Below are positions 14,503-31,064 of a stretch of DNA of 64,000 nt, one piece after another. Below the pieces are notes generated by a model. The model had not been told where the DNA came from, did not search any database, and saw only the letters and a program-made list of their open reading frames with translations. Positions within the stretch are counted from its first letter, which is position 1; each line of letters starts with the position of its first letter. The position numbers were made by a program, and so were the translations under genes. The DNA is taken from assembly GCF_026153515.1 (NCBI RefSeq), contig NZ_CP110644.1:2075501-2139500 (forward strand), read 5' to 3'. The DNA comes from Pseudomonas sp. KU26590. Lineage in GTDB: Bacteria; Pseudomonadota; Gammaproteobacteria; Pseudomonadales; Pseudomonadaceae.

Positions 14503-14571
14503 TATCTGTGTAATTATGTTTGCTTAATATATTAAATTAATGCATACAAATGTCCCCCACGATGCATTTTC

Positions 14572-14660: not shown

Positions 14661-14675
14661 CGTATGGGCGTTGGC

Positions 14676-16256
14676 TCAGATCACATAAAACCCGTGGGTC
14701 CCGTCGCGGCCCAATTGCTCGACCAATCCATACTCCCAATCCAGATAGGCCTGCATCGCCTCACGCGGGGCATCGGTGCCTTCATAAGGCCGGCGATAGC
14801 GGTCAATGCGCGGGGAGGCCAGATGGCTTTCGCCGTGCTCAAGCTCGAACTCCGCCGCCACCCAGCTGGCGGTGCCGTCCTTCAGCACAAACACCGGCTT
14901 GCCGGTCAGCGCCTCGACCTCCGACACCGCAAGCCGCGCGAGTTTGCTGCTGCCACAGGTCAGCACGTAACGCTCAGCGACGGGGATGTTCTGCAGCGCG
15001 TTGGCAAGGTCGGCACGCAGCGTCCACCAGGCGCCTGGAATATGCTGCTTGACGTAGTGGGCGCTGGCGGTGAAATCCAGCACCGCCACGCCACTTTGCT
15101 CGCGCCACTCGCGCAGCGTTTCGGCGCTGATCTCCTCGACCTGCGGCGCGGGCGGACTGGGGGCGTTCCAGCCGCCGTTTTCGCTGAAATCCTCAAGGCC
15201 CAGGTCGTCCACCACGAACACTTCCCAGCCTAGCTGCGCGAGCCACGAAGCAGACATGTTCGCGCGCACGCCGTCGTCATCCAGCAACACGATTCGTGCG
15301 CCGCGCACGCTGGCGTAATGGTCAGTCTCCTGCACCAACTGGCCGCCCGGCGTCGAACGGGCACCCGGCACATGGCCGGCTTCGAATTCCTCCGGCGTGC
15401 GCACATCGAACAGGTACGTCGTGCGACTCGTTTCTGCCCGCCAGACCGGCAAGTCCCCGCGGCTGCCGCGTTTCACTCGCGCCTTATCCGCGACGTTGCG
15501 CGCATCCGCCCGAGCGACTTCCCGGGTCGCTTCACTGACCTGCGGGAAGCGCCGGGATTGCCCATGATCCAGCGTCTGCCCGGCCAACAGCCAGCCGATC
15601 GTGCCATTGCGCAGGGCGGAAATGGGGTTGGGCAGGCCGGCATTCACCAGCGACTGGGTGCCGATGATGCTGCGCGTACGGCCGGCGCAGTTGACGATGA
15701 TGCGGGTGTTGGGATCGGGCGCCAGCTCACGCGCGCGCAGCACCAGTTCGGCGCCGGGCACGCTGACGCCGCTGGGAATGCTCATGGTCTGGTATTCATC
15801 GAACCGCCGCGCATCCAGCACCACCACGTCAGCCTTGGCGTCGAGCAACTGCTTGACCTCTTCGGCGGCCAACGACGGCGTGTGGCGATGGTGCTCCACC
15901 AGTTCGCCGAACGCCTTGCTCGGCACGTTGACGTCTATGAACAGCTCGCCGCCGGCGTCGCGCCAGCCCTGCAGTCCGCCTTCAAGCAGCTTCACGTCGG
16001 TGTAACCCAAGTCCTGAAAACGCTTCAAGGCGCGTTCGGCCAGACCCTCACCGTTGTCATAAACGGTCACAGCGGTGTCGAGACGGGGGATGCGCGCGAG
16101 TACTTCCAGCTCCAGTTTCGACAACGGGATGTTGGCGGCGAACAGTGGATGAGCTTCGGCGAACGGGGCTTCTTCGCGGACATCGACCAGCGCGACTTCT
16201 TCATGGGCGAGCAGGGCGCGGCGGATGTCGGCACAGGAACGGGTGTGATGGCTCAT
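14676..16256 (-). CDS. Four-module rhodanese-family sulfurtransferase
   Basis: 526 aa built from four rhodanese modules. Module 1 (about 8-105) has Asp67 where the catalytic Cys would be (VYDNGEG). Module 2 (about 130-215) carries Cys190 in VNCAGRTRSIIG. Module 3 (about 270-355) again has Asp (LLDDDGVRANMS). Module 4 (about 375-460) has Cys434 in LTCGSSKLARLA. So active and inactive modules alternate. Rhodaneses move sulfane sulfur to thiol acceptors such as cyanide or glutathione. Its ATG overlaps the stop of the upstream thiol dioxygenase (TAATG), so the two are co-translated in a thiol catabolism operon. Confidence 0.9.
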   Translation of the reverse strand: MSHHTRSCADIRRALLAHEEVALVDVREEAPFAEAHPLFAANIPLSKLELEVLARIPRLDTAVTVYDNGEGLAERALKRFQDLGYTDVKLLEGGLQGWRDAGGELFIDVNVPSKAFGELVEHHRHTPSLAAEEVKQLLDAKADVVVLDARRFDEYQTMSIPSGVSVPGAELVLRARELAPDPNTRIIVNCAGRTRSIIGTQSLVNAGLPNPISALRNGTIGWLLAGQTLDHGQSRRFPQVSEATREVARADARNVADKARVKRGSRGDLPVWRAETSRTTYLFDVRTPEEFEAGHVPGARSTPGGQLVQETDHYASVRGARIVLLDDDGVRANMSASWLAQLGWEVFVVDDLGLEDFSENGGWNAPSPPAPQVEEISAETLREWREQSGVAVLDFTASAHYVKQHIPGAWWTLRADLANALQNIPVAERYVLTCGSSKLARLAVSEVEALTGKPVFVLKDGTASWVAAEFELEHGESHLASPRIDRYRRPYEGTDAPREAMQAYLDWEYGLVEQLGRDGTHGFYVI

Positions 16257-16861
16257 TAGGCTTGGTTCTCTTTTGACAGATCCCAGATGTTCGGGAGAAA
16301 GGCGTTGGAATAACCCGAGATGAACAGCTTTTCGCTGCCATCGGGCTGATAAACGGCGCGCTTCACGGCGCCAATGTTGGCACCGTAGACATGAATACTG
16401 ATCGACACCTGGTCGTCGAAGGCATTGCGGACCTGATGAATGTCGTTGCTGCGCGGCGACAAGGCCTCGACGTGGCCGGGCTCCAGGCGGATCGCCGGGC
16501 CTTCCTGTTCCAGTCGGCCATCGGCGCTGCGGGCGAACCCCTGCGAATACTCCGCCCCGCGCAGCATGCCGATCAAGCCCGAGACGCGGTGGTCATGAAT
16601 CGGCGTGCTCTGGCCCGGTCCCCACACAAAGCTGACGACCGAAAACCGCTGCCTTGAGTCGGCGTGCAACAGAAACTGTTGATAGCGCGTCGGATCGGGA
16701 ATCGCGAACTCATCCGGCAGCCAGTCGTCATGACTGACCAGTTGCCCCAGTAGCTTGCCACCCCGTGAAAGCAGGTCGCCTTCCCCCGGATTGCTATCGA
16801 TCAGCTCGGCCAGCTCGCCGATAAAAGCCCTGAGTCGTTCAGGGTGTCGGATGTGGGTCAT
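16256..16861 (-). CDS. Cupin thiol dioxygenase, 3-mercaptopropionate dioxygenase-like
   Basis: 201 aa from the ATG at 16861, which has GGAG eight bases upstream; an in-frame TTG five codons earlier is less likely. The iron-binding triad is His89, His91 (TPIHDHRVSG) and His142 (SNDIHQV), the spacing known for the Pseudomonas 3-mercaptopropionate/cysteine dioxygenases. These enzymes add O2 to the thiol to form a sulfinate. The operon partner is the rhodanese protein, and a LysR gene is divergent. Substrate preference (3-mercaptopropionate over cysteine) is inferred from family resemblance. Confidence 0.88.
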   Translation of the reverse strand: MTHIRHPERLRAFIGELAELIDSNPGEGDLLSRGGKLLGQLVSHDDWLPDEFAIPDPTRYQQFLLHADSRQRFSVVSFVWGPGQSTPIHDHRVSGLIGMLRGAEYSQGFARSADGRLEQEGPAIRLEPGHVEALSPRSNDIHQVRNAFDDQVSISIHVYGANIGAVKRAVYQPDGSEKLFISGYSNAFLPNIWDLSKENQA

Positions 16862-16890
16862 GTCGGCTCCGGGCAAAGAAGGATGCTCAA

Positions 16891-16928
16891 TATAAGCATA
16901 ATGCAGCAGCCTAATATGCTATTTATTG
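16891..16928. promoter_or_regulatory. Candidate operator upstream of the dioxygenase-rhodanese operon
   Basis: tataagcataat and atatgctatttattg (16914-16928) resemble the patch at 14453-14502. The site lies in the gap shared with the divergent LysR gene, the usual place for LysR-type operators. Confidence 0.35.
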
Positions 16929-17073
16929 ATGATTAGGTTATAACCAAAACGTAGCTGATAACCGATTCACGGGTTGCTGGCCGCTCTGTGGCTAACCAGA
17001 GGCTATCCAGAGCCTTTGATAGCCATTATGATTTTTTGCCTATCTTGTTTCCCTTATTCCATGTGCGATCCGA

Positions 17074-17979
17074 ATGAAAATTGATGACATCGATGCGTTC
17101 GTAGCGGTCATTCGCTGCCAGTCGATCAGCCATGCCGCTGAATCCCTGGACCTGACCCAGCCGGCCATCACGCGCCGCGTGCAGAATTTCGAGCAGGCGC
17201 TGGGCGTTGAATTGTTCGACCGTAATACCAAGCCGCTCAAGCCGACGCCAATGGGCACGCAGGTCTATCAGAAGTGCCTGGCGATCCTGCGGGAAATGGA
17301 CTCATTGCGCGAACTCGTCGCCAGCGACACGCCACCCAGCGGTTTGCTCCGGCTGGGCGTGCCGCAAACCATCGGCGACGTCGTGCTGCTGGATGCGCTC
17401 AAACACCTGCGCGGGCAATTTCCCGACCTGCGCGCGCAAGTCGTCACCGGCTGGGGCAGCCACCTGATCGGCAAAATCGAGAACGGCGAACTGGACGCGG
17501 CTGCGGCGCTGTTCCCGGCCGGGAAGATTTTTCCTGAAGGCATCGTCGGCGAGTCCATCGGCAAGATGGAGCTGGTGGTGGTGTGCGCCAAGAGCGCGCT
17601 GCCGAAAAAGCCGGTGAAACTGGCGGACTGCTACGCGCTGGGCTGGGTGCTCAACCCCGACGGCTGCGGTTTCCGTGCCGGGCTGCAACGCACGCTGGCT
17701 GATCAGGGGTTGAGCCTGAAGGTCAATCTGGAAACCTTCGGCACCGAGCTGCAACTGGGGCTGGTCGCCGACGGCATGGGTCTGGGTCTGGTGCCGCGTC
17801 CGCTGCTGGAGCGCAGCGTCCACCGCGATTCACTCGCGGTCATGCCGCTCAAGGATTTCAAGCCGGTGATGGACCTGTGGCTGATCTACCCGCGCTTCCT
17901 CGGCAATTTGCAGGCGCCGGTGGCGTCCTTCGGCAGTTTGGTGGCGCAATCGCTGAGACAGGAACGCGACGCTGCTTAA
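17074..17979 (+). CDS. LysR-type transcriptional regulator of the sulfur block
   Basis: 301 aa. The N-terminal winged helix-turn-helix (MKIDDIDAFVAVIRCQSISH, then LDLTQPAITRRVQNFE) is followed by a substrate-binding domain (about 90-295). Divergent placement against the thiol dioxygenase-rhodanese operon suggests it controls that operon and itself, as is usual for LysR regulators. The effector is unknown, probably an organosulfur compound. The gap to the neighbour (about 210 bp) is AT-rich and contains the candidate operator. Confidence 0.9.
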   Translation: MKIDDIDAFVAVIRCQSISHAAESLDLTQPAITRRVQNFEQALGVELFDRNTKPLKPTPMGTQVYQKCLAILREMDSLRELVASDTPPSGLLRLGVPQTIGDVVLLDALKHLRGQFPDLRAQVVTGWGSHLIGKIENGELDAAAALFPAGKIFPEGIVGESIGKMELVVVCAKSALPKKPVKLADCYALGWVLNPDGCGFRAGLQRTLADQGLSLKVNLETFGTELQLGLVADGMGLGLVPRPLLERSVHRDSLAVMPLKDFKPVMDLWLIYPRFLGNLQAPVASFGSLVAQSLRQERDAA

Positions 17980-18004
17980 GGGCTCTGCACTTGGGCGGTG
18001 GGCC

Positions 18005-18640
18005 TCAGGGAAGTTCGATCAGCCTATCCAGAAAGGCGCGCACCACAGGATGGGTGCGACGACTCTCTGGCCAAATAGCCGTGACATTGTGCCTCTGCAC
18101 CGCAAACTCCGAGAGAATCGGGATCAGCTCTTGCCGCTTCACCCTCGCTTGCATCAACGACGACAGGCGATGACGGCAGTATTTCGATTTCCTTATCTCC
18201 AATGCGAAATGGCCAGCGTAAGGTTTGACCGGTGGATTGATAGCGCAGATTCACCGTTTCGTGCGTGGCCAGCTCATCAGGATGCTGAGGCGTGCCGCGC
18301 CTGGCCAGATAGTCTGGAGAGGCATAACAACCAAGCGTTTACGGCGATAGCCTTCGGGACAAGAGCGATGAGTCGGGAAGGTCACCAATTCTTATCGCCA
18401 GATCAATACCTTCCTCGACCAGGTCGACGATCTGGTCGTTAACCCGCAGATCGATTAATACCTTCGGCTAGCGCTTACGAAACTCGGTGATGGCGGGCGC
18501 GATGATATTGAAGCCCGATGGGAAGTGATGTCGCGATCCGTAATGTGCCAGCAGGCTCGGAGCGTGCCGACTTGGCAAGATGTTCGATCTCTTCCGCCTG
18601 ACGCAACAGCCGCAATACACGCTCATGAATATCGCGTCCT
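18005..18640 (-). pseudogene. Degraded LysR-type regulator, 5' end deleted
   Basis: Reading the minus strand in pieces gives [20 protein letters not shown], then a frameshift near 18510, [13 protein letters not shown], an in-frame TAG near 18472, [20 protein letters not shown], a further stop near 18338, then [16 protein letters not shown] and finally, after another shift, a LysR-like C-terminus ([15 protein letters not shown]). These are the ordered parts of a LysR protein from the end of the DNA-binding domain onward. The helix-turn-helix region is missing: the sequence runs straight into a quinone reductase gene on the other strand at about 18635. The gene is certainly non-functional. Confidence 0.8.
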
Positions 18641-19443
18641 TAGGCACGGATTTGTCGGGGGAGGTAGTCGCGCTCGGCGACGGAGCCTCCAGATTCAGCG
18701 TCGGTGACAACGTCTATGCAATGGTGCGTTTTCCCAAAGATCTGAGGACGGGCAACAGCGCCTACGCCGAATACATACGCATCGATGAGAACGAGTTGGC
18801 GTTGAAACCCACCGGCGTAGACCACGTCCAGGCCGCAGGTGCGCCGATGTCGTTGCTCACTGTCTGGCAGTTTCTGATTGATCTGGGCCACGACGAGCCG
18901 AATCCCTTTCAGTCATTTCGACATGAGCCCGTACCGCTGCGCGGCAAGACCGTGCTGGTCAACGGTGCTGGAGGTGCAGTGGGGCACCTGGCGGTGCAGG
19001 TTGCCAAATGGAAGGGGGCGCGCGTCATCGCGGTCGCCTCCGGTAAGCATGAGAGCCTGCTTTGCGACTTGGGCGCAGAGGCATTTATCGATCACACCAT
19101 GACGGCCGCTGAAGACGTCGCAAAGCATGTGGATCTGGTGATTGACGCCGTCGATGGTGCGAATATGAAACGCTTTCTGAGCGTCATAAAACCGGGCGGC
19201 GCTCTCTTCCTGGTCAACCCCATGGGCTTCTGCGGGCATGAAGAAGCAGCTGATCTTGGCATCACCGTTTCCTCAACGCAGGTGCGCTCCAACGGCATGC
19301 AATTGGCAGAGGCTGGCCGCTTGTTGGAGGACGGAACGGTTCGCGTGGTAATCGACAGTACGTTTGCGCTGGCCCAGGCATCAGATGCGCACCACCGGGC
19401 TTCACGGGGAAGTATTCAAGGAAAGATCGTACTTATCGCCTGA
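18634..19443 (+). pseudogene. Zinc-type quinone/alcohol dehydrogenase, N-terminally truncated
   Basis: Similarity to medium-chain quinone oxidoreductases begins abruptly at [20 protein letters not shown] and continues to the end, including the Rossmann motif VLVNGAGGAVGHLAVQVAK. About 50 N-terminal residues of the GroES-like domain are missing. The frame remains open from an ATG at 18580, but those first 18 codons are antisense to the LysR relic and have no family character. If translated at all, the product would lack half of its catalytic domain. Together with the LysR relic this marks a deletion that removed the 5' halves and the shared promoter of a divergent pair. Confidence 0.7.
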
Positions 19444-20075
19444 GTCATCAACGCCTCGGATTTCAGAGCTCTGAAAAATCATTCTGATGGAACGCTGGGC
19501 TGATCAAACCGTGCTTAGCGCACATCTTGATGCCATAGACACCGTTCAGTTCGTAAACCGATGGCAAGGCTGATGCGAGGCGATATCAGAAAGTACGACG
19601 CTTTGAACGAGCGGGGTCTTATGGCTGCAGTAGCAGCGAAGCCAACCTTTCGGGCTGCCCCTCCTGGCGGGATTGAAAGGCCGCTATCGACCCTAGCGGC
19701 CCTTGGCTGAGGGTAGCAAACGGCCAATCGCGGTCATTCATTACGCGGCAGTTTCCCACGCCTGCGAAGAAGACCATGAAGAATCCGAACACAATATGCG
19801 CTGGCTTGCTGCGCATACCGCACACCGCATTGGCCATATGGTCGGCGGAATAAGTGTAGCGTTCCCTACGATCTGAAGCAGGATTGCGTTAACCGACTGA
19901 TAGAGGCTACCCAGCAGACTTCCAGACAATTAGCGCTAAACGGCAACGTAGCCGCAACCCAGCCGCAATCTTCACGTCCAATCCTTCAGCTGTTCAGTCG
20001 TCACGTGCCGAATGTGCACTGGACATTGGGTGATATGCTGAGGACTGTTTTTCGATGAAAAAAGGATTTCTCAAG
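19444..20075. other. Gap between the truncated reductase and the aminotransferase
   Basis: About 630 bp without a supported gene. A 49-codon plus-strand frame from 19561 (MARLMRGDIRKYDALNERG) could be a remnant, but no family is recognised. Composition shifts toward AT from about 19860, and the promoter of the aminotransferase gene should lie near 20000-20050. Confidence 0.5.
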
Positions 20076-21116
20076 ATGGATGCAGAGGTGCAAATGCAGG
20101 GTGTAGAAATAAATTGGGACAAGCTGGGTTTTGATTACATAAAGACAGCTTTTCGTTACCGAATGCTTTGGCGTGAGGGGGAGTGGCAGAAAGGAGCTCT
20201 GACCGCAGATAACCAAGTGCACCTGAGCGAAGGATCCACCGCGCTGCATTACGGACAGCAGTGTTTTGAGGGGCTGAAGGCATACCGTACACAAGCAGGA
20301 ATTGATCACATTTTTCGTCCGCTTGAAAATGCGCGAAGGATGGCCCGCAGCTGCAGGCGCCTTCTAATGCCGGAAGTGCCGGAAGATTTATTCGTGGAAG
20401 CCTGTCGCCAAGTCGTCTTGGCCAATAAAAAATTCATGCCTCCTTATTCGAGCGGCGGCGCACTTTACCTGCGCCCATATGTTATCGGGGTCGGGGACAA
20501 CGTGGGCATCCGTAGTGCACCGGAGTTTTTGTTCTCCGTGTTCTGCGTGCCGGTAGGGTCATATTTTAAAGGTGGGCTCAAACCGCATGATTTTCTAGTT
20601 ACCGATTACGATCGAGTAGCCGCGGCCGGCACTGGCTCCGTGAAAATTGGCGGAAATTATGCTGCGGGGCTGTTGCCTGCGGCGGAAGCGAGAGGACGGG
20701 GTTTTGCTGACTGCATATATTTGGACCCTGATACTCATAGCAACATTGAAGAGGTTGGAGCGGCGAACTTCTTTGGAATATCCCAAGACCGTCGTAAATT
20801 CATTACTCCTAGCTCGTCTTCGATACTGCCCGGCATCACACTTGATTCGCTGATCACCATTGCCGCACAGCGTTTAGGGCTGCAGGTGGAACAGCGCCAT
20901 ATCCGGATCGATGAGCTTAATCAGCTCTCTGAAGCTGGTGCATGCGGAACAGCTGCCGTGATCACGCCTATCCGTAGCATAGAACACCGCGGCGCTATAC
21001 ATGCATTTGATGCAGGCGATGAGGTCGGACCAGTCACACTACGTCTTTATCAGGAGCTGACGGGCATCCAGAAAGGAGACGTATCGCCATTCCCTAACTG
21101 GCTCGTGGATACATAA
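20076..21116 (+). CDS. Branched-chain amino acid aminotransferase
   Basis: 346 aa from the ATG at 20076, chosen because AAAGGA lies about nine bases upstream; an ATG at 20055 would add seven residues. This is a fold-type IV PLP enzyme of the long BCAT group: LHYGQQCFEGLKAYR, LYLRPYVIGVG, the PLP lysine in GTGSVKIGGNYAAG, and IEEVGAANFF. BCATs interconvert Leu, Ile or Val and their 2-oxo acids. Base composition is AT-richer than the flanking core genes. It is probably an additional, horizontally acquired copy serving the neighbouring cluster, but a 1.06-kb gap separates it from the operon starting at 22179. Confidence 0.88.
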   Translation: MDAEVQMQGVEINWDKLGFDYIKTAFRYRMLWREGEWQKGALTADNQVHLSEGSTALHYGQQCFEGLKAYRTQAGIDHIFRPLENARRMARSCRRLLMPEVPEDLFVEACRQVVLANKKFMPPYSSGGALYLRPYVIGVGDNVGIRSAPEFLFSVFCVPVGSYFKGGLKPHDFLVTDYDRVAAAGTGSVKIGGNYAAGLLPAAEARGRGFADCIYLDPDTHSNIEEVGAANFFGISQDRRKFITPSSSSILPGITLDSLITIAAQRLGLQVEQRHIRIDELNQLSEAGACGTAAVITPIRSIEHRGAIHAFDAGDEVGPVTLRLYQELTGIQKGDVSPFPNWLVDT

Positions 21117-22178
21117 AGTTGTAACTGTACGTCGATGCGGCGTAGCCGTCGGCAGCCTAACGGTTGTCGGCGTTACGCGAATTCATTAGATATCCAGGCA
21201 TGGGTACCACCGCAGCCCAGCCACAGTGGCGGAATTCCTCGACCTCCTCGTATTCCGCTCAAAAAGGTACACAACCGTCTGCTGCCAAACCGCCAACCCG
21301 TCCGGAAATCGAGCCAGATGACACTTATCCTCGTGCCGGTGCTCACCTACGTTGCAGCCATCCTAAAGATGGCGCTGCAGGTAGGCCTCTTCCGCCGTTA
21401 GCCTGATCTCAGCAAGCACGAACCGAATAAATTGAGCAGCCGGCATGAGCGCTTAATGCGTCGATTTCGCTGTACACGTCCGGCCGGCGCCAGCCTTGTA
21501 GACGCATAACATCTGTATTCAAGCATTGGGCATAAGGCCAGGAGGAGTGTTGAAGCGAGCGCTTGTCAGTAAAGGGACCGACGAAGACACCTGCGGGAGT
21601 TCTATTTTGGGGCACACTCCGACTGCAGAGCTAGGTGACTCGAATCACTTAAAATTCGAGTATTTGGTGTCAATTCAATGACTTAAATCCATAATTTTTT
21701 CCAGCGACATTTTTCTTTTACTGAATGTTCTGACACGGCGAAAGAAATGCGCTCTTACTGACACCTGCGCCCAGTTTCGGTGCAAAAGATTGTGTCAGTA
21801 TGTCTACAAAAAAATCGCGCGCTTGGCTTCCAATGGGGCGCTTGTTGTTTTAGATTGGGATCCACACATGGACGAAGGACTAGCGCAGTATGCGAAGTAT
21901 GAATAAAATCTCAAGAACTCAACTCCCCATACCTGGATTGCAACCTCTTGAGTTAAGTGGCTGCAAGTCCTGTCGCCAGCTTGACGTATTGCTACATAAT
22001 CGAAGCTGATAACCCCCATTTTATCATATAGTTCTCACACCTCGTTAACGCTGAGTGGATAACGCTGCTTGAAGTGCAGCCACTTATTTTCGCTAGTTTA
22101 TTGCACCGTGCGTAAAATGCCAGTGCGAGAAATGGGCCGCAAATGGAATTACTGTTCTAGGAATAGAGGGATCGTGTG
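21117..22178. other. AT-rich gap inside the island
   Basis: About 1.06 kb with no supported gene; short frames here lack ribosome sites and family similarity. A 10-bp perfect inverted repeat (aagtggctgc at 21955 and gcagccactt at 22076) brackets about 110 bp. The operon promoter is likely in the last 150 bp, but no convincing -35/-10 pair stands out. Confidence 0.5.
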
Positions 22179-23348
22179 ATGTTCGTCGAAATTGATTCAA
22201 AGACAAGTCGTGCCATTTTGAAATCCATATCCTATGGACTACCCTACGACCCAGTCGGGCTGCATCGTGACTCTAACGCGATCTCTAACAGGCTTTCAGA
22301 ATTGCGTCACCGGTACAACGGAATGCGGATCGGACGGGGTAAAATTGACGCTCCGGTTAGCAACTACCTATTCTATCTAATGTTGAAAGAAAAGTACTCC
22401 GAATTCAGCTTTGAGCTTCGCCACTCCAAGAAGCAAGTATTGACCAACCTTCACAAATTCAAAACAGGCGGTCGAATACCCTCATTGGCTGCCCTATTAC
22501 TTTCAGACTCAATAGGGACCAAAACGGATATAGAGCTAAAGTATGAAAGCGTTCTAAACAGCTCATTTAAAGCGCAGATAGCTACTTTGTTGTCAGATAG
22601 CGATATCATGGCGCCGGCTCCGAACTCAATGAAGAAACTCATAGAAACGCTCGATCACTGCAAAGACCGTAATGAACAGCTGACTCTCGTCAGCGCTATC
22701 TGCCCCGACTACGCATATATTAGAGACGCTACCGGACGACCTCACTATACTTTTAACAGCGTTGGTCATGGAACTGGGCTAGCAGGGGACAAGCTTATCA
22801 AAGCCGGTTACGCTATTAAAACCTTCGCGAGTGAATCAAGCTTACGCGTTAATCACATGCTCTATGGCGGAGAATTCGAATACAATTCATTTTACAAAGG
22901 TCAGTGCACCGAGGTGGAAAGGGCTGACTTTCTGTCCAAGGTAGAAACGCAACTTGTAACAGTTGGGGCGAAACTTCAAACTGATTTTCAAACGGTTTCA
23001 TTTTTTCAAAGATGCGGTGGTGAGGAAGAGTGGGTTAATCAGCATGCCGTCATTAGTGCTCGAATACGTGCAGGTGACTACGGCGAAACCGGGCTGGACA
23101 AATTTTCAATGCAAGAGATCTACGAATCCAGACTCCCGCTGTATTCGAAGTGGTTTCCGAATGCTCCAGAAGAGAAGATCTGGAATAACTTCACTTCACA
23201 AGCAGCAGAATACGCATTGATGGGCAAGCTCTTTCACGAGCATCATGGACGCCATGTGGTAGTCGCGGTAGACCATTACAGGATGGAACCTTTCTATTCT
23301 TATTTCCACCCGTCATCAGTGCTGTATATCAAGACCGATTATGTGTGA
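22179..23348 (+). CDS. Unrecognised 389-aa protein, first gene of the island operon
   Basis: 389 aa from the ATG at 22179, with AGAGGG eight bases upstream. Soluble, with no signal peptide or transmembrane segment. I do not recognise the family. Conspicuous stretches likely to be functional are LVSAICPDYAYIRD (about 185-200), YTFNSVGHGTGLAGDKL (about 205-220), an HEHHGRH cluster (about 355-361) and a C-terminus ending VDHYRMEPFYSYFHPSSVL. Repeated Tyr and His in the last third hint at a metal or nucleotide site, but that is a guess. It is separated by 13 bases from the desaturase-like gene, so it belongs to that operon and probably supplies or modifies its substrate. Codon use is AT-rich like its neighbours. 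Confidence 0.75.
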   Translation: MFVEIDSKTSRAILKSISYGLPYDPVGLHRDSNAISNRLSELRHRYNGMRIGRGKIDAPVSNYLFYLMLKEKYSEFSFELRHSKKQVLTNLHKFKTGGRIPSLAALLLSDSIGTKTDIELKYESVLNSSFKAQIATLLSDSDIMAPAPNSMKKLIETLDHCKDRNEQLTLVSAICPDYAYIRDATGRPHYTFNSVGHGTGLAGDKLIKAGYAIKTFASESSLRVNHMLYGGEFEYNSFYKGQCTEVERADFLSKVETQLVTVGAKLQTDFQTVSFFQRCGGEEEWVNQHAVISARIRAGDYGETGLDKFSMQEIYESRLPLYSKWFPNAPEEKIWNNFTSQAAEYALMGKLFHEHHGRHVVVAVDHYRMEPFYSYFHPSSVLYIKTDYV

Positions 23349-23361
23349 CCCAGAGGATGTT

Positions 23362-24639
23362 ATGGAAAACAATTTTGAAACCCGCTACACAAAATACGGT
23401 TACGGTGTAAATGTTAGAAAAAGTTACGAACACCTGCCCTTTCAGGGCTTCTGGACATGGGTAACAGGGAAATCACTGAATTCCGCCGCGCCAAAGCATG
23501 CAAGAGAGACCCTCTTAACCCAACCCCAGCTGATCTTGCAAATAAGTTGGGGGTATGCTGTATTTTTTGCCTCCGTGATAATTGGCAAAATTATCTTGGA
23601 TGCTGATATTTCGTGGATGCTTAAAGTTCTGTACTCACTACCTATATTTTGTATGATTGTAAATCGTTCGCGGGGGCTTTTACATACAAGCCATTACGTC
23701 ATTCATGGGGCGGTATTACGAAGCAAAACCTTATCGAGATTTTATTACAAGTGGTTACTTTCAATTCCAGTTCTGCATACGCCCTGGGATGAGTACATGA
23801 AGATACACGTGGTGAAGCACCACGGGCTAGGCACCTTTAGTACCGAGCATGACGTCGACCAAGTTTTTATGACTAAACACGGCTTCTACAACGGGATGCG
23901 TGAGCCGGAGTTTTGGTTGAAAATCTTCCTCGCACCGTTTCATCCTCTAAGAATCTACGAGCATATTCGCTTTCGGATACTGGTTAATTTTATCGTCTGT
24001 AATTGGAATGAGAGGTTATGTCGCGCTACGTATTGGTTCATATTGATAACGGTGGCCTACGCCTCGGGGTACTTCGAAAGCTTTCTGATTTATTATGTAG
24101 GCTCGATTCTCGTCGTGACTCAATTCTCTTCTTGGATTCAACATATTACTGAGCATCAGTGGTTTGGCGTGAATCGTCTGAATTGGCCAAAGCACGTTTT
24201 CTATGGATCGTTAACATGGGGACGCTTCTTTGGCAGCCCTTACCCTGTCAAAGCCGAAGGCTGGCGGTTCGCTTTTATGTTTTGTAAATGGGTTTTAAAA
24301 GTGACATTCATTGATATTCCGCTCCGGCTTTTTGCTTACATGCAAGACCTGCCCAGTCACGACTTCCATCATCGCTTCCCGGCTGTAGGTTTTTGGAGTA
24401 TTGCCCCCGAACGAGCTGCTCATGAGAACAAACCTTCCCGATACGGCCCGATGACAGAGACGTGGAGCATGAAAGAAGGAATACTAATCGCGCGGGACCA
24501 TCTTTGCCGCGGGCAAAGCGACCCGTTCGATATAGAAGGCTGGTATCAAGCAAATAAACACACATATGCCGCCTTCTTTGACAACAAGCAGCGAGGCGCG
24601 CTGTCCACTCAATCACTAAAGGAGGAATGCAGAGTATGA
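23362..24639 (+). CDS. Membrane di-iron fatty-acid desaturase/hydroxylase family protein
   Basis: 425 aa from the ATG at 23362 (AGAGG five bases before; an ATG at 23341 overlapping the previous stop is an alternative). Histidine clusters typical of the superfamily are seen: HTSHYVIHG (about 110), HVVKHHG (about 150), QHITEHQW (about 265) and HDFHHR (about 335). Four or more hydrophobic segments separate them (about 60-75, 85-100, 225-255). Such enzymes use two irons and O2 to desaturate or hydroxylate lipids, alkanes or smaller acyl or amino-acid substrates. In this context a small amino-acid-derived substrate is plausible but not shown. Its stop overlaps the next start (ATGA). Confidence 0.85.
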   Translation: MENNFETRYTKYGYGVNVRKSYEHLPFQGFWTWVTGKSLNSAAPKHARETLLTQPQLILQISWGYAVFFASVIIGKIILDADISWMLKVLYSLPIFCMIVNRSRGLLHTSHYVIHGAVLRSKTLSRFYYKWLLSIPVLHTPWDEYMKIHVVKHHGLGTFSTEHDVDQVFMTKHGFYNGMREPEFWLKIFLAPFHPLRIYEHIRFRILVNFIVCNWNERLCRATYWFILITVAYASGYFESFLIYYVGSILVVTQFSSWIQHITEHQWFGVNRLNWPKHVFYGSLTWGRFFGSPYPVKAEGWRFAFMFCKWVLKVTFIDIPLRLFAYMQDLPSHDFHHRFPAVGFWSIAPERAAHENKPSRYGPMTETWSMKEGILIARDHLCRGQSDPFDIEGWYQANKHTYAAFFDNKQRGALSTQSLKEECRV

Positions 24640-25283
24640 AACTTACTACAGAAGGAATAGCGCATGAGCTCAGGTCGTTTGGAGTGGCGTACCTTCCGCC
24701 GAGTAGTGGAATATATGATGAGATCGTCTGGCAAGAAATCGATTTATTAATTAAATCACCTGATTTGCCGTGGGAGAAGATTCTCATCGGGGATGCGGAT
24801 GAGAAAAATGATTTGCATGTTGCCAGGTTCATGACCGATATAGATATACCGAAGTATGTAAATCTTCCGCACTCACTCAAGATGAAAGATCTGGTCTGCC
24901 AGCCCGAACTCATGAACATATTTACTAGCCTCTTTGACGCTGAAGAATTCTTCATACGCCGTATGCAGGTAAATAAAATGCAAACGAATTCATATATTGG
25001 GAAACATCTGGACATCGATAGCAACCCTGATTATTCATATTCTATTGTTCTGCAGCTCGGCGACGGGTTTTCGGGAGGAGAGTTTACAGTCTACGACCAG
25101 GCGGGATCTGTATCGCGGTCGATAAAGCCAGCACTGGCATCTGTCGTAATCAGCGACTGTACTTTCGCGCACGAGGTCGAAACAGTGACCGCAGGTAACC
25201 GGATCTCGCTGGTTTTTTTTGTAAGTAAATACGCAGATCACAACAGGCGGAGTCGTCCTCCCCAAACACCGGCTATGGCGTAA
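24636..25283 (+). CDS. 2-Oxoglutarate/Fe(II)-dependent oxygenase (prolyl-hydroxylase type)
   Basis: 215 aa from the ATG at 24636, which overlaps the upstream stop and has AAAGGAGG ten bases before it. The iron triad is His124, Asp126 (GKHLDID) and His179 (CTFAHEVETV); Arg189 (AGNRISLVFF) would hold 2-oxoglutarate. The FSGGEFTVYD strand is typical of the P4Hc/PiuC-like group. These enzymes hydroxylate, desaturate, cyclise or halogenate small molecules or side chains; the Asp in the triad argues against a halogenase. It is the third gene of the operon. Confidence 0.88.
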   Translation: MKLTTEGIAHELRSFGVAYLPPSSGIYDEIVWQEIDLLIKSPDLPWEKILIGDADEKNDLHVARFMTDIDIPKYVNLPHSLKMKDLVCQPELMNIFTSLFDAEEFFIRRMQVNKMQTNSYIGKHLDIDSNPDYSYSIVLQLGDGFSGGEFTVYDQAGSVSRSIKPALASVVISDCTFAHEVETVTAGNRISLVFFVSKYADHNRRSRPPQTPAMA

Positions 25284-25351
25284 CCTTTCAAAACGCAAGG
25301 TTGGCAGTCCATTACTTATCCATCAGCGCTCCACGGAGCCGAATCCAAAAT

Positions 25352-25380
25352 GATCCCACGGCGAGTGGGATCTCTCCTCT
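25352..25380 (+). terminator. Hairpin in front of the LysE gene
   Basis: An 8-bp perfect stem (gatcccac / gtgggatc) with a 5-base loop is followed by a pyrimidine-rich tctcctctt. It could attenuate transcription into the exporter gene; the tail is not a clean T-run. Confidence 0.35.
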
Positions 25381-25397
25381 TAAGGGGATTTATTTAT

Positions 25398-26012
25398 ATG
25401 CATCTTACTATCGAATTACTTTACAGCTTTGCGATTTTTGCATTTGTGTCATCAATTACACCTGGCCCTAACAATACTATGCTCTTAGCATCTGGCGTAA
25501 ATTTTGGTTTTTTCCAGACCATTCCTCACGCCTTAGGCGTCAGTTTAGGGTTCATGGCGATGGTTTTAGCAGTGGGGTTAGGGCTAGGGGCTGTATTGGA
25601 AGCCTTCCCTTCCATCTATAGCTTTTTGCGCTACGCGGGTGCCGCGTATCTGATCTATTTAGCATGGAAAATAGCTACCTCAGGCCCATTAGAGAGCGGA
25701 TCCCACGTGAATAGCCGGCCGCTAAGTTTCCTGGGCGCGGCAGCATTTCAATGGATTAATCCAAAGTCATGGGTCATGGCGATTGGGGCAATCACGACCT
25801 ACACACCCTCTGAGGGATATATTTACAACGTCGTTGTCGTCGCTGCTTGCTTTGCTGTGGTTAACATTCCATGTGTTTTGTCATGGGCGGGATTTGGCTC
25901 AGCGTTACGACGTTTTTTAACGAAACGGTCGTACCTGCATGCCTTCAACATCACGATGGCGATTCTTCTAATAATGTCACTTTATCCATTGCTCGAAAGC
26001 AGTGGCGTTTAG
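25398..26012 (+). CDS. LysE/RhtB-family amino acid exporter
   Basis: 204 aa from the ATG at 25398, with AAGGGG ten bases upstream. The N-terminal SSITPGPNNTMLLASGVNFG is the family signature, followed by about six hydrophobic segments and the central FQWINPKSWVMA. LysE/RhtB carriers export amino acids and analogues by proton antiport. Placed at the end of the modifying-enzyme operon, it probably exports the product or protects the producer. AmbA of the P. aeruginosa AMB antimetabolite cluster is a known precedent for this arrangement. Confidence 0.92.
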   Translation: MHLTIELLYSFAIFAFVSSITPGPNNTMLLASGVNFGFFQTIPHALGVSLGFMAMVLAVGLGLGAVLEAFPSIYSFLRYAGAAYLIYLAWKIATSGPLESGSHVNSRPLSFLGAAAFQWINPKSWVMAIGAITTYTPSEGYIYNVVVVAACFAVVNIPCVLSWAGFGSALRRFLTKRSYLHAFNITMAILLIMSLYPLLESSGV

Positions 26013-26353
26013 ACGGAAGGCACTTATCACCACATGACGCCGCGTGCTTTTTAAGGCAGCGGCTATCAACGTCGATACCTAGTCAGCACTGCGAGGATGG
26101 ATTCTCGCAGATTGGAACTCTGCTGACTCATGTCGCTTCTATCCATGCCGGCATAGGCTCAGTGCATACACCAATTGCCGAGCGTCGTTACGCGGAGTCC
26201 GAGAGAGTCAGCTATTGACCCAAAGCGGCCCCTCAGCACGTGGCTAAAACCGAACAGAAGCATCCGCTCGCCACCCACACAACCATGGACACCTCGAACA
26301 AAAAATGAACACGCCCGGCGGGCATTCAATACCACGCACCGGGCGACTCCCAT
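26013..26353. other. Gap at the right edge of the island
   Basis: About 340 bp between convergent genes. Composition changes back toward GC. A weak inverted repeat (cgcccgg / ccgggcg, about 26310-26344) precedes the quinone reductase stop. No gene or insertion-sequence end is recognisable. Confidence 0.5.
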
Positions 26354-27352
26354 TTACACCACCTTCAGCACGATTTTGCCGACATGGTCGCCTTGTTCCA
26401 TTCGCTGATGCGCTTGTACTGCGTCGGCGAGAGGAAAAACACGGTCAATGATCGGCAGGCATTCGCCTTGACTGAGCAACGGCCAGACATTGGCTAGTAC
26501 GGCGCGAGCAATCTCGGCTTTTTCCTCCGCGCTGCGCGAACGCATCATCGACCCTGTCACCGAGCCTTGCTTTTCCATCAGCGCCAGCAGATTGAAGTCC
26601 TTGACGGAGCTGCCGCCCAGAAAACCGATAATGACCAGTCGACCGCGTCGTGCAAGTGACGCCACGTTGCTCTCGAAATAGCTCCCGCCCATGATGTCGA
26701 GAATTACGTCCACACCCTTCTCGTGGGTTTGCCGGGCGATCTCCTGAGCGAAGTCCACCTCGCGGTAATTGATCGCTTCGCCACCCAGCGCGCGGATCCG
26801 GTCGCACTTTTCCTGGCTGCCGGCCGTTGCAAAAGCCTTGATCCCCAAGGCCTTGCACAGCATCAGCGCGGTCGTGCCGATGCCGCTGGTGCCGCCATGG
26901 ATCAATACGGTGCAGCCCTTTCGGGCACGGCCCAGTTCGAAAAGATTGGCCCACACGGTAAAGAATGTTTCCGGAATAGCCGCGGCCTGAATCATGTCCA
27001 CGCCGTCAGGGACCGGTAATGATTGGGTGGCCGCCACAACGCAGTATTCGGCGTAACCACCGCCATTGGTCAGCGCACAGACCTTGTCGCCCAGCTTGAA
27101 ATCGGCCACGTTTGCGCCAACCCCAACAACCTCACCGGCCACTTCCAGCCCGGGCACAGGGGTCATGCCGGGTTTCATCGGGTATTTGCCCGAACGCTGT
27201 ATGACATCAGGACGATTGATGCCGGCGGCGTGAACCCGGATCAGCAACTCGTGATCACCCGGCGTTGGCACATCGGCCTGCATTATCTTTAACACTTCGG
27301 GGCCACCGGGTTCGGTGATCTCGATGTAGTTCATACGGTTTGGCACATTCAT
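26354..27352 (-). CDS. NADPH:quinone oxidoreductase (PIG3-like)
   Basis: 332 aa, a medium-chain dehydrogenase without the catalytic-zinc ligands. Seen: MNYIEITEPGGPEVL, AGINRPDVIQRSGKYP, the cofactor motif VLIHGGTSGIGTTALMLCKA and a C-terminal DHVGKIVLKV. This is typical of the PIG3/TP53I3 group of one-electron quinone reductases. AAAGGT precedes the first ATG. It lies upstream of nothing on its own strand except the island boundary. Confidence 0.9.
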   Translation of the reverse strand: MNVPNRMNYIEITEPGGPEVLKIMQADVPTPGDHELLIRVHAAGINRPDVIQRSGKYPMKPGMTPVPGLEVAGEVVGVGANVADFKLGDKVCALTNGGGYAEYCVVAATQSLPVPDGVDMIQAAAIPETFFTVWANLFELGRARKGCTVLIHGGTSGIGTTALMLCKALGIKAFATAGSQEKCDRIRALGGEAINYREVDFAQEIARQTHEKGVDVILDIMGGSYFESNVASLARRGRLVIIGFLGGSSVKDFNLLALMEKQGSVTGSMMRSRSAEEKAEIARAVLANVWPLLSQGECLPIIDRVFPLADAVQAHQRMEQGDHVGKIVLKVV

Positions 27353-27448
27353 GGGACACCTTTTGTTGAGTGGGCTAATTGTTGAGAGGGCTAAAGACTC
27401 TGAAAGCTGAACGTCAAAGACATTCAGCCTGTTTAGCTGCCCGTCGAA

Positions 27449-28624
27449 TTAGCCCTCGACTGTAAACCTCAGTCCGGCTTTTTCAGTCAGGCGGTTGAGC
27501 AACGCCTCATTCAACGCCGCCGCGGGCGTCCAGCAACCGCCCGGGGTCTCCTCACGTGTCACATCGAACGCCAACGCCATCGCTGACTCGGCCAACATCT
27601 TGGATGTCGACAGGTAGCCCGGATCCTCGTCGCAACTCACGGATGCCTTGAGCACCTGACCATCGGCCAGTTCAGCGATGAACAGCACATCATAAAAGCC
27701 TGCCTCAAGCTCCTTCTGTGTCGGCCCTTGCCCCGGTTGCGGATGACCGCCCTCATTAAAGGAGAAGCCCGCCAGGCCAGGCTCATCGTCTTCGCTCGGT
27801 TGTGCCTTGAGCATCAGCATTTCGTCGTACTGAAACGACGTGCCCCACAGGTGCCCTTCCAGCAAGTTTGTGCGATGCACCGCCTTGGAATTGATGCCCG
27901 ACATGATGAAAGGCCCGACCCAGGTCTGAGCCAGTTCATCCTGGTAGGGGGTCTGATCATCAGGTTGCTCGACACCTTTGAATCCCGGTGTGTAGGCAAA
28001 TGGATCGGCGACCAGTGCGCCCAACGCAGGATCCTGCGCTGCCGCTGCAACCACCGCATCGACACTCAGGAACGTGCCACCGGACAGCACGCCTTGCATC
28101 TTGCGCACGCGGCCCCTGATCCGAGGCGCGTAGCGAGCGAACTTCTTCATGACCTGCTGCTGGGTGAACCATACGCCGAGGTCGAACGGCACCGAATCGA
28201 AACCACAGGAGAACACCAGTCGCGCGCCCGATGCCTGGGCTTGGGCCTGATAGCTGCCGATCATTTGGGCAATCCAGGGGATCTCCCCCGAGAGGTCGAC
28301 GTAGTCCGTCCCCGACTCGGCGCAGGCTGCCACCAGGTCCGAGCCATAGACCGAAAACGGCCCTGCGGTGGTAATCACCACCCGGGTCGCGGCAACCATG
28401 TCGCGCACGGACGCCCGGTCCTGGGCATCGGCCACGATCAGCGGCAGCGCTGCGGCGTTTGCCCAACTGTCCCGAATGGCTTCCAGCTTGCTCAAGCTGC
28501 GACCGGCAATGGCCCACTTAACAGGGCCGTCGACGCCGTATTGAGTGAAGAAGTATTCAGCGACCAGCCGACCGGTGTAACCCGTGGCGCCGAAAATGAT
28601 CACATCGAATGTTTGTTTACTCAT
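27449..28624 (-). CDS. Saccharopine dehydrogenase-family NAD(P) oxidoreductase
   Basis: 391 aa. An N-terminal Rossmann fold with DVIIFGATGYTGRLVAEYF, then WAIAGRSLSKLEAI and a YVDLSGEIPW segment. This matches the saccharopine dehydrogenase-like group that includes the trans-acting enoyl reductases of mycobacterial lipid synthesis. The substrate is unknown. It is divergent from a LysR gene across 113 bp, so that regulator is its likely controller. It may be co-transcribed with the quinone reductase, 96 bp downstream. Confidence 0.88.
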   Translation of the reverse strand: MSKQTFDVIIFGATGYTGRLVAEYFFTQYGVDGPVKWAIAGRSLSKLEAIRDSWANAAALPLIVADAQDRASVRDMVAATRVVITTAGPFSVYGSDLVAACAESGTDYVDLSGEIPWIAQMIGSYQAQAQASGARLVFSCGFDSVPFDLGVWFTQQQVMKKFARYAPRIRGRVRKMQGVLSGGTFLSVDAVVAAAAQDPALGALVADPFAYTPGFKGVEQPDDQTPYQDELAQTWVGPFIMSGINSKAVHRTNLLEGHLWGTSFQYDEMLMLKAQPSEDDEPGLAGFSFNEGGHPQPGQGPTQKELEAGFYDVLFIAELADGQVLKASVSCDEDPGYLSTSKMLAESAMALAFDVTREETPGGCWTPAAALNEALLNRLTEKAGLRFTVEG

Positions 28625-28737
28625 GGAGGAGATGATTCCTGAAAGGGCCGCGAAGCAAAGGCGACACTCTAGCCATCCTGCCTACAAATGATTAGATGGT
28701 ATGGTTGGAATAGACCTATAACCCCAGAGCATCAATC

Positions 28738-29634
28738 GTGCGCGACACCGTCACCGACCTCTTGGCCCTCCTTCGAGTGGCCCGTGAAGGCAGTTTTACC
28801 AAAGCGGCGGCCCAGCTTGGCGTTTCCCAGCCTGCGCTGAGCCGCACCATCACCAAGCTGGAATCGCGCCTGGGTGTGCAATTGCTGACCCGCAGTACCC
28901 GCAGCGTCGCGCCGACCGAAGCCGGAGCGCGCCTGATCGAGAGCATCGGGCCGCATTTTGACGGGATCGAGTCAGGGCTCAACGAGCTGAGCGAACTCAG
29001 CGGCATGCCCGCTGGTAGCCTGCGCATCACCTCCATGGAGCACGCAACCCATCTAGTCCTTGCCCCGGCTGCGCTGCAATTGATGACCGACTATCCGGGC
29101 ATCAAGGTTGAAATCAACGACAGCTACGCATTGGTCGACATCGTTGCAGAGCGCTTCGATGCCGGTATCCGCCTGGGGGCGCAGCTGGCTCAGGACATGA
29201 TCAGCATGCCCATCGGCCGGGATTTTCGCATGGCATTGGTGGCCGCCCCCGCCTATCTGGAACACCGTGCTAAACCCCTGACGCCACAGGATCTGACCGA
29301 GCACGCCTGTATCAACCTGCGCCAGCCCACCTCGGGAGGATTGTGGGCTTGGCCTTTCGCAAAAAACGGGAGAGAAATCAAAGTACGCGCCGACGGGCAT
29401 CTGGTGAGTAACAACATCTGGCTCATGCGTGATTTTGTCAGGGCGGGTGCCGGACTGGGGTACTTCCCGGAGCATCTGGTCGAGCAAGATCTGGCACAAG
29501 GTCGCCTGGTGCGGCTGCTTGAGGACTGGACTGGCACCGTCACCGGGTATCACCTCTACTACCCAAGCCGGCGCCAACACAAACCGGCTTTTCGTCTGCT
29601 TCTGGATGCCCTGCGTGATCAGTCAGGTCGCTGA
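28738..29634 (+). CDS. LysR-type transcriptional regulator
   Basis: 298 aa, GTG start. The helix-turn-helix reads FTKAAAQLGVSQPALSRTIT and the substrate-binding domain follows (RLGAQLAQDMISMPIG). It belongs by look to the CrgA/DmlR-like subgroup. It is divergent from the saccharopine dehydrogenase-like gene; the short AT-rich gap (attagatggtatgg at about 28690) should hold both promoters and the operator. Confidence 0.9.
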   Translation: MRDTVTDLLALLRVAREGSFTKAAAQLGVSQPALSRTITKLESRLGVQLLTRSTRSVAPTEAGARLIESIGPHFDGIESGLNELSELSGMPAGSLRITSMEHATHLVLAPAALQLMTDYPGIKVEINDSYALVDIVAERFDAGIRLGAQLAQDMISMPIGRDFRMALVAAPAYLEHRAKPLTPQDLTEHACINLRQPTSGGLWAWPFAKNGREIKVRADGHLVSNNIWLMRDFVRAGAGLGYFPEHLVEQDLAQGRLVRLLEDWTGTVTGYHLYYPSRRQHKPAFRLLLDALRDQSGR

Positions 29635-29993
29635 CTGTCTCCCTCTGGCCGATCGCTGCCTCTCGACTCAGGCGGTATTGAGCGACAGACATGCGTTTGA
29701 GAGAAGGGCGGATAACTGTCAGTGCATATCACGTTAGGCAGTCTGAATTTCGCTAACGGACTCGGTAGGTCTAACCATCAGCTGCCGCCTATCCTCTGGC
29801 GGTCGTGCAGGAATCGCTCAGTGGTCTGATGGCGCAATCGCTGGGCAGGAACGGGATACCGCTTAAGGCCCATTCCGGTTCGATAATAAAAAATATTGAT
29901 AATTAGCTTAGAAGAAAATGTGATTTTTAATCGTTTTCGACAACGCATAGGCTGCCCTGATCAAGTCTGAACCAGACCCTCAGGGAGTCATGC
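29635..29993. other. Gap with a LysR 3'-end relic and an AT-rich promoter region
   Basis: About 360 bp. The first part shows nothing clear; 29818-29870 is a gene relic listed separately. From 29880 to 29950 the sequence is strongly AT-rich and likely holds the promoter of the aldolase gene. Confidence 0.5.
29818..29870 (+). pseudogene. Relic of the 3' end of a LysR gene
   Basis: ggcgcaatcgctgggcagga and the following acggg...gcttaagg closely match the last 45 bases of the LysR gene at 17074-17979 (ggcgcaatcgctgagacagg ... gcttaagg), including the stop codon. A frameshift is visible. A paralogue of that regulator once stood here, probably next to the aldolase gene. Confidence 0.6.
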
Positions 29994-30812
29994 ATGAGCA
30001 ACGTCAGTGCTTTACCCGTTCAGTCCAGCGTCAGCACCATCGCTAATGCCAGCAGCGTACGCGATCGGGTCAGCCCGCAAGAGTGGGAGGTGCGGGTGAA
30101 ACTGGCGGCGGCTTACCGGTTCGCCGCCCTGAAACGCTGGACCGATCACATCTACACGCACTTTTCCGCGCGCGTGCCGGGTCCTGACGAGCACTTCCTG
30201 ATCAACGCCTTTGGCTTGCTGTTCGACGAGATCACGGCCTCCAATCTGGTCAAAGTCGATATCGACGGCACCATCGTCGATGACCCGACCGGCCTGGGCA
30301 TCAACAACGCCGGCTATGTGATCCACAGCGCCATCCATGCAGCGCGCCCTGATTTGCAGGCGGTGCTGCACACCCACACCCGCGACGGGATTGCCGTCTC
30401 TGCGCAGAAAAACGGGCTATTGCTGATCTCCCAGCATTCCCTCGGTTTCTCCGGGCGCTTGGCGTACCACGGTTACGAAGGCATCGCGCAGGACCTCGGC
30501 GAGCGCGAACGACTGGTGGCGGACCTGGGCGACAAGAGCGTGATGATCCTGCGCAACCACGGTCTGCTCACGGCAGGGCTGAGTGTCGAGCATGCGTTTC
30601 AACAGCTGCACAACCTCGAATACGCCTGCAACATCCAGATTGCCGCGCAGGCGGCGGGCAATGCCGAACTGATCTTCCCGCCTGAGGAAGTGGTGAATAG
30701 GGTGGAAGAACAGGCCAAGGTGCTCAAAAGCGGCACGGGGCCTGGCGTGACACGGCACTGGAATGCGCTGATTCGCGAACTGGATCGGCACGGGACGGAT
30801 TATCAGGCGTGA
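29994..30812 (+). CDS. Class II aldolase/adducin-domain protein
   Basis: 272 aa. The zinc-site region HTHTRDGIAVSAQ and ILRNHGLLTAG are the hallmarks of the aldolase II/adducin fold; KRWTDHIYTHFSARVPG is also typical. Relatives cleave sugar phosphates such as fuculose phosphate, but many, like this one, are uncharacterised. Its start MSNVSALPVQSS has a poorly conserved leader of about 25 residues. A fragment of a second copy lies at 32572-32727. Confidence 0.88.
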   Translation: MSNVSALPVQSSVSTIANASSVRDRVSPQEWEVRVKLAAAYRFAALKRWTDHIYTHFSARVPGPDEHFLINAFGLLFDEITASNLVKVDIDGTIVDDPTGLGINNAGYVIHSAIHAARPDLQAVLHTHTRDGIAVSAQKNGLLLISQHSLGFSGRLAYHGYEGIAQDLGERERLVADLGDKSVMILRNHGLLTAGLSVEHAFQQLHNLEYACNIQIAAQAAGNAELIFPPEEVVNRVEEQAKVLKSGTGPGVTRHWNALIRELDRHGTDYQA

Positions 30813-30849
30813 TCACATTGATTCAGCAACGCGAAACGTTGTTGGAGCG

Positions 30850-30905
30850 CGCGAAGAGGCAGGTACATCCGATACAAACGCGTCGGATGTACCTGCCTCT
30901 TCGCG
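30850..30905. repeat. Perfect 23-bp inverted repeat fused to a REP half-site
   Basis: Arms of 23 bp (cgcgaagaggcaggtacatc... and its exact complement) with a 10-base loop. The right side runs into gcgggcaagcgcgctcctac, the half-site of the 14572 REP family, and the left flank ttggagcgcgc is the other half. So a REPIN has an unusually long, perfect stem in its interior. There is no T-run. Confidence 0.85.
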
Positions 30906-31064
30906 GGCAAGCGCGCTCCTACAGGATGCTGCAAGCTTATGAAGACCAGCACAGCATTTGTTCACGGAAAGTCGATACTGGCCACTGCTGCCCGCGAACC
31001 AACTGCCGTTTTGCCTATCACAGCTATCGCCGCCCACTCTGGCGGCAGCTCAGGGAGCGTTCCA

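Follow-up and report, generated by a model that had tools for sequence, protein, structure and literature searches.

The question addressed here is what product is made by five AT-rich genes that lie together in the genome of Pseudomonas sp. KU26590 (6.18 Mb in one contig). The genes form an island within the stretch of 64,000 nucleotides that we analysed (contig NZ_CP110644.1, positions 2,075,501 to 2,139,500), hereafter called the window, and an earlier note made from the sequence alone had read them as a pathway for a modified, exported amino acid. They encode a branched-chain aminotransferase (BCAT), a 389-residue protein (UNK), a putative membrane oxygenase (DES), a 2-oxoglutarate oxygenase (OXY) and a LysE-type exporter. 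Their open reading frames (ORFs) were called as follows, with start codons checked:

20055 or 20076-21116, + strand: BCAT, 346 residues, ilvE_II
22176 or 22179-23348, + strand: UNK, 389 residues, first core gene
23341 or, likelier, 23362-24639, + strand: DES, second core gene
24627-25283, + strand: OXY, 2OG-FeII_Oxy_3, third core gene
25350 or, likelier, 25398-26012, + strand: LysE exporter, ~204 residues

The answer that we favour, with a confidence only slightly above even, is that the island represents, in its LysE-type form, a rare family of gene clusters that share the core UNK-DES-OXY and yield an oxidised small amino acid for export. The cluster family itself is real and conserved, and is uncharacterised as far as we have searched; its gene content, co-occurrence, conservation and invariant oxygenase residues can be read directly from the loci described below. 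UNK occurs in 13 of 398 sampled Pseudomonas genomes (that of the window included), in two of 398 genomes sampled across the phylum (that of the window and G704), on one of 72,556 plasmid records (from Massilia forsythiae) and at 17 or more loci among 84,980 species genomes, where the count is a lower bound from a pattern search. At all 23 loci laid out by tblastn, some of which may come from the same species, UNK, DES and OXY are found together, and in 22 they are contiguous and in that order. Omitted from this set were L023, which shares a contig with L013, and short search loci from genomes already counted. Co-occurrence in a fixed order, which the earlier note had proposed as a check on all five genes, is therefore seen for the core three, whereas all five are present at only three of the 23 loci. 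The trio is compact in the window. A DES start at 23362 leaves 13 bp between UNK and DES, the 3' end of DES shares 13 bp with OXY, and a LysE start at 25398 places that gene 114 bp beyond OXY. BCAT, separated from UNK by 1.06 kb on the upstream side, thus falls outside this tight operon.

The genes that accompany the trio divide the loci into four types:

Type A (the window, L005 and L006; n = 3): the trio with LysE and BCAT
Type B (L007-L011, L022 and L101; n = 7): an FA_hydroxylase relative, the trio, a penicillin acylase, a GNAT-like protein and a LuxR-type regulator, in all seven
Type C (n = 12): an SDR protein, the trio, an EamA exporter, a methyltransferase and a small protein, with a MocR-type regulator on the opposite strand
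Type D (Massilia plasmid; n = 1): OXY, a GNAT-like protein, DES, UNK, an AMP-ligase-carrier protein and a nonribosomal peptide synthetase (NRPS) of the order C-A-carrier-TE

Relatives of BCAT and LysE were found only in type A, and BCAT is not counted as core because none was found in the other 20 stretches. A LuxI-like acyltransferase (Autoind_synth, 84.5 bits; cut-off 24) is encoded at six of the seven type B loci, and none was found in the stretch from PA7 (L011). The GNAT-like assignment in type B is a reading of the sequence that has no Pfam match, and the fatty-acid-hydroxylase relative of this type matches a single NCBIfam model, that of the ornithine lipid hydroxylase OlsE (54 bits; cut-off 475). 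Two type C loci carry a cupin protein. Near the type D trio a penicillin acylase is encoded, as is a member of the sterol desaturase family. A penicillin-acylase-family enzyme is thus present at all eight type B and D loci; among NCBIfam models it comes nearest to that of PvdQ, scoring 56 bits where the cut-off is 950. The Massilia plasmid (L025/L110; 116.6 kb) is typed as mobilizable and has an IS3 family transposase near the cluster, and for these reasons the module may move between genera. One type C locus (L015) lies in a metagenome-assembled genome labelled Paucimonas and encodes an UNK that is 92% identical to a Pseudomonas UNK, and is probably either a recent transfer or a mis-binned contig.

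OXY matches PF13640 (2OG-FeII_Oxy_3; E 3.7e-10) and has H127, D129, H182 and R192 invariant across 15 sequences, and on this evidence is an Fe(II)/2-oxoglutarate oxygenase. DES has no Pfam match up to E 0.1. Ten of its histidines (112, 116, 150, 154, 155, 266, 334, 337, 338 and 381, numbered on the translation of window positions 23359-24636) are invariant in 17 sequences; the underlying alignments (A4 and A5) cover 17 loci for DES and 15 for OXY out of the 23. The sole NCBIfam model matched by the DES proteins tested is that of GntB, the guanitoxin L-arginine gamma-hydroxylase (NF041365), by name an amino-acid hydroxylase. The match is distant, with E 4.1e-13 and 49.4 bits for the DES of the window and 65.8, 52.8 and 54.7 bits for three others, against a cut-off of 380, and the model has 308 positions whereas DES proteins have 403-426 residues. 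DES is a probable membrane oxygenase of the histidine-box (di-iron) type, and probably an amino-acid hydroxylase. The earlier note had the two oxygenases desaturate or hydroxylate their substrate; hydroxylation is favoured here, and desaturation is the weaker proposal because the only named relative of DES, far under its cut-off, is an arginine hydroxylase.

Judging from its wider distribution, DES is not strictly tied to UNK. Matches to DES were found in four of 299 genomes of the phylum sample, two of them distant (E 4.7e-33 and 1.7e-32), and the 19-20 kb around these two contain no convincing UNK by tblastn (E up to 1; best 0.063). One of the two has as neighbours genes resembling glutamate mutase, a LysE gene and counterparts of the type C EamA and MocR genes. 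In the Pseudomonas genome G157 (L107, positions 1716-11954), a GntB-like membrane oxygenase adjoins two genes resembling glutamate/methylaspartate mutases, with matches below cut-offs, together with a LysE exporter and what reads as a dehydrogenase; relatives of the type C EamA and MocR proteins are nearby, and the cluster looks like another amino-acid pathway. A role for the island in defence was considered and rejected, as PADLOC, run on six proteins, matched just OXY, and that to a general 2-oxoglutarate oxygenase model listed as CRISPR-associated.

UNK has no Pfam or NCBIfam match up to E 0.1 in profile searches, and when the PDB was searched by sequence neither UNK nor DES had a relative there (E no better than 0.8 and 0.085, as chance would give). 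Fold models were made for two UNK proteins that are 25% identical and were submitted to Foldseek and VIA-align searches. The best Foldseek match of both models is the isonitrile synthase PvcA/IsnA, in agreement with a PvcA/IsnA-like predicted fold, and structures of cyclodipeptide synthases (CDPSs) are among the matches of both. With the first model, VIA-align lists almost exclusively tyrosyl-tRNA synthetases (TyrRSs) and a single PvcA row, which has 229 aligned residues, more than any TyrRS among the rows listed. UNK is predicted, then, to take the TyrRS-like fold that is common to isonitrile synthases and CDPSs, with an extra N-terminal part of ~130 residues relative to PvcA/IsnA. Since this is the fold of enzymes of these three kinds, UNK plausibly handles an amino acid. 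As far as we have searched, it belongs to no described enzyme family, and its predicted fold is a familiar one. A viral origin for UNK was rejected: 227 candidate stretches from viral contigs were checked and contained no relative of it, and fold searches gave no viral match at E 0.001 or better.

From these observations we infer an order of steps, the amino-acid nature of the product and a role for BCAT. UNK, which is without the ATP-binding signatures of synthetases, would bind an amino acid and perform the first committed step, and its product would be oxidised by DES, acting as a membrane GntB-like hydroxylase, and by OXY. The final product would keep its amino group and be a small amino acid, perhaps an antimetabolite. 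That it carries an amine, and hence is an amino acid, is suggested by the fact that two unrelated acylating devices, in types B and D, share one kind of acylase; an amine-bearing product also makes it less likely that the amine is turned into an isonitrile. Export would be performed by LysE in type A and by EamA in type C. In the other types the product may be N-acylated in the cell, with an acyl group supplied by the LuxI-like enzyme (type B) or by the acyl-ligase and NRPS (type D), and later freed by the penicillin-acylase-family enzyme, presumably in the periplasm.

The interpretation in the earlier note is partly supported by this scheme. An exporter or acylase in each type fits a secreted product, as that note had proposed. 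Its suggestion that the unknown protein builds or activates a scaffold from a branched-chain acid stands in so far as amino-acid handling is plausible from the predicted fold, but a branched-chain origin is not shown, because 20 of the 23 stretches yielded no BCAT and the genome of the window has a second BCAT. Its description of the pathway as free of NRPSs holds in the window but not in the Massilia relative.

The aminotransferase is an extra copy in its genome. It passes the cut-offs of NF009897 (427 bits) and TIGR01123 (ilvE_II; 417.8 bits, cut-off 250.05), and is 63% identical to the second BCAT encoded elsewhere. Among 38 related genomes, 21 have a BCAT match (E up to 1e-60), 19 of them as a single copy, and two copies are present only in the window's own genome and in G018. 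Of 208 alignment columns that are invariant in 22 ordinary BCATs, the three cluster copies keep 155. Sixteen are changed in all three, with the identical change at eight, R256L among them, and the residues on either side of the lysine that we take to be catalytic are altered. These changes suggest that the cluster BCAT has an altered active site. It would be either a less sensitive copy of the product's target or a finishing enzyme in type A only, and we consider self-protection by a protected target copy to be more likely than a type-specific last step.

Several observations weigh against the overall reading. The LysE protein (PF01810, E 4.8e-17) and the acylase fall far under the cut-offs of all named NCBIfam models; for LysE the nearest is the cysteine/O-acetylserine exporter PRK10323 (91 bits; cut-off 193). 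The three cluster BCATs form one clade in just 42% of bootstraps, and a single clade is also not rejected (p-AU 0.42). The two UNK models are not fully independent because the same 20 sequences lie behind both. Their TM-scores to isonitrile synthases are modest (0.32-0.41 by query length), and with the second model the 50 VIA-align rows listed are all TyrRS-type chains, with no PvcA and no CDPS; such lists are no evidence against a family that they lack. No sequence-profile link from UNK to PvcA or CDPS was found with hhalign (probability <1%; PvcA 0.3-0.4%, CDPS 0.2%), which is weak evidence of absence given shallow alignments and a CDPS set of three closely related sequences. Moreover, types B and D contain a relative of fatty-acid hydroxylases, and some of their reactions may therefore act on acyl chains.

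The predicted fold invites two other explanations for UNK. It could be a far-diverged isonitrile synthase that joins the amino nitrogen to a sugar-phosphate carbon, with OXY serving as PvcB/IsnB to form a vinyl isonitrile. The top Foldseek matches and the long PvcA alignment are in its favour, as is a 2-oxoglutarate oxygenase close to UNK, given that isnB adjoins isnA in isonitrile clusters. However, the motifs PAFPxKS and RLSIH, which were derived here from 18 PvcA-family members, are present in all 18 and in none of 21 UNKs, profile similarity is lacking, OXY belongs to PF13640 whereas PvcB is of the TauD type, and the acylation in types B and D would need an amine that is free. We regard this explanation as quite improbable. 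Equally improbable is the proposal that UNK is a CDPS-like enzyme dependent on aminoacyl-tRNA, its product being an aminoacyl amide or a dipeptide that would then be tailored by DES, OXY and the type C methyltransferase. CDPS structures are matched by both models, a methyltransferase is indeed present in type C, and the invariant S172, near the end of strand 168-173, could correspond to the CDPS serine in a topological reading made without a computed alignment. Helix 243-267 carries a charge of +2 to +4 in type C and +2 in type D, which leaves room for such a role, but it is about neutral (-1 to +1) in types A and B; the net charge of region 130-389 is negative in all 21 UNKs, and no basic patch shared by every type was found. 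UNK also has no match to the CDPS family PF16715 up to E 0.1, and a CDPS-like pattern, run without a CDPS control, occurs in one of 21 UNKs. Nor do any of the 21 contain HIGH or KMSKS-like patterns (run with no positive control). The catalytic part shares its predicted fold with CDPS and TyrRS.

Two further explanations concern the accompanying genes. Instead of producing a small molecule for secretion, the clusters could act on a lipid, either one of the membrane or an N-acyl amino-acid lipid, as might be expected from the Autoind_synth acyltransferase and OlsE-like hydroxylase of type B and from the resemblance of DES to a membrane enzyme. Relatives of these type B enzymes were not found in the stretches searched in types A and C (15 of 23 loci), which nevertheless have LysE or EamA, and an acylase is present wherever types B and D occur, making a lipid product improbable as well. 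Alternatively, BCAT and LysE might be unrelated neighbours and the biology that of the trio alone. The distance between BCAT and UNK in the window, its different place in L005 and L006 (downstream of LysE, beside the trio), its GC content above that of the trio and the poorly supported BCAT tree would accord with this. However, both genes stand beside the trio at all three type A loci, in two arrangements, and the cluster BCATs share the eight identical changes at columns otherwise invariant. We consider coincidental neighbours unlikely.

Set beside known systems, the island that we interpret as an amino-acid cluster resembles amb of P. aeruginosa, which is small and NRPS-based and includes an exporter of the LysE type as well as Fe/2-oxoglutarate oxygenases (PMC4357302). 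The two share the exporter and oxygenase types; NRPSs and 2-oxoglutarate oxygenases number two each in amb, whereas the island has one of the latter (the only one by Pfam among nine scanned proteins), a membrane oxygenase and UNK. NRPS genes of the amb kind were not seen, the longest ORF overlapping 15-31 kb being 527 aa in length. With PvcA/IsnA (PF05141), UNK shares a predicted fold but neither motifs nor a Pfam match up to E 0.1; IsnA enzymes take the nitrogen from Trp or Tyr and also use ribulose-5-phosphate (PMC7949033). Furanomycin is an amino acid secreted by P. fluorescens SBW25 that antagonises branched-chain amino acids (PMC3662646); the part of that source available names no genes for it, and SBW25 does not appear by name among the 17 UNK loci, which were not searched by name. 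As in the earlier note, which did not recognise the gene set, no characterised pathway matching it was found in the literature, in a limited search that tests absence weakly. A CDPS-like gene was observed elsewhere in Pseudomonas (L065, positions 471-2181; also L066 and L067), with PF16715 just above cut-off in three of 149 genomes; in L065 the ORF directly upstream of it looks, from its sequence, like a gene for a 2-oxoglutarate oxygenase.

The island stands out by its composition and appears foreign to its site. As the earlier note stated, the five genes are lower in G+C content (GC) than both flanks. The six 1-kb bins across 20001-26000 (GC 0.447-0.519) are the lowest of the window's 64, the next being 0.546. 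GC and GC at third codon positions (GC3) are 0.524 and 0.513 for BCAT, 0.457 and 0.490 for UNK, 0.457 and 0.506 for DES, 0.458 and 0.493 for OXY, and 0.470 and 0.488 for LysE (GC3 0.49-0.51 in all), versus 0.583-0.632 and 0.681-0.808 (0.68-0.81) in six flanking genes. In L005 and L006, where LysE is 73-74% identical to that of the window, the trio, LysE and BCAT are also AT-rich (GC ~0.46-0.51 vs mostly 0.54-0.64 in flanking ORFs). Two features mark the edges, the first of which bears out the note's report of decayed genes there:

18580-19443, + strand: zinc dehydrogenase remnant at the left edge, N-terminally truncated (ADH_N match begins at profile position 34)
17984-26230, no strand: stretch foreign to the site (apparent insertion or rearrangement), with limits from comparison with the relative G020

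In G020, whose flanks are 89-96% identical to those of the window, UNK was not found. Homology on the left stops at 17983, the counterparts of 13782-17983 and 29882-36484 lie ~4.5 kb apart, and that of 26231-29637, a block present in G026 too, is ~165 kb away. Because these pieces are displaced and UNK is absent there, the island appears to occupy a rearranged spot, and on this comparison ~18.0-26.2 kb is foreign to the site and lies beside a moved block. Positions 18016-18497 have a 72-78% match in another Pseudomonas (G018). Only short, imperfect repeats were found near the island, where transposases were not systematically searched. Promoter-like matches are fewer than in shuffled sequences (6 vs a mean of 8.5) and terminator-like sites more numerous (15 vs 7.0). 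Elsewhere in the window, a tRNA-Glu/tRNA-Gly pair is duplicated in tandem (12822-13233), and the translation of a 527-residue ORF (30939-32522) has repeated GGxGxD-like motifs resembling RTX calcium-binding repeats.

Clusters for a small secreted amino acid with self-protection are already known, and it is the core chemistry that may be new. A more far-reaching proposal, which we offer tentatively and hold to be less probable than the reading given at the outset, is that UNK founds a new family in which the aminoacyl-tRNA synthetase fold, working without ATP or tRNA, forms on an amino acid a bond never before assigned to it. UNK would then belong to a portable trio module for a new class of non-protein amino acid, used with four export or protection schemes: LysE with a resistant aminotransferase, EamA, LuxI-like acylation with an acylase, and NRPS acylation with an acylase. 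The findings point to an undescribed family of natural-product enzymes on a fold that links tRNA charging, cyclodipeptide synthesis and isonitrile synthesis. Because the four types share a core and swap genes for export and protection, the product and the logic of self-protection are approachable by comparison. If the product does inhibit branched-chain aminotransferases, it would be an addition to the small set of amino-acid antimetabolites from Pseudomonas.

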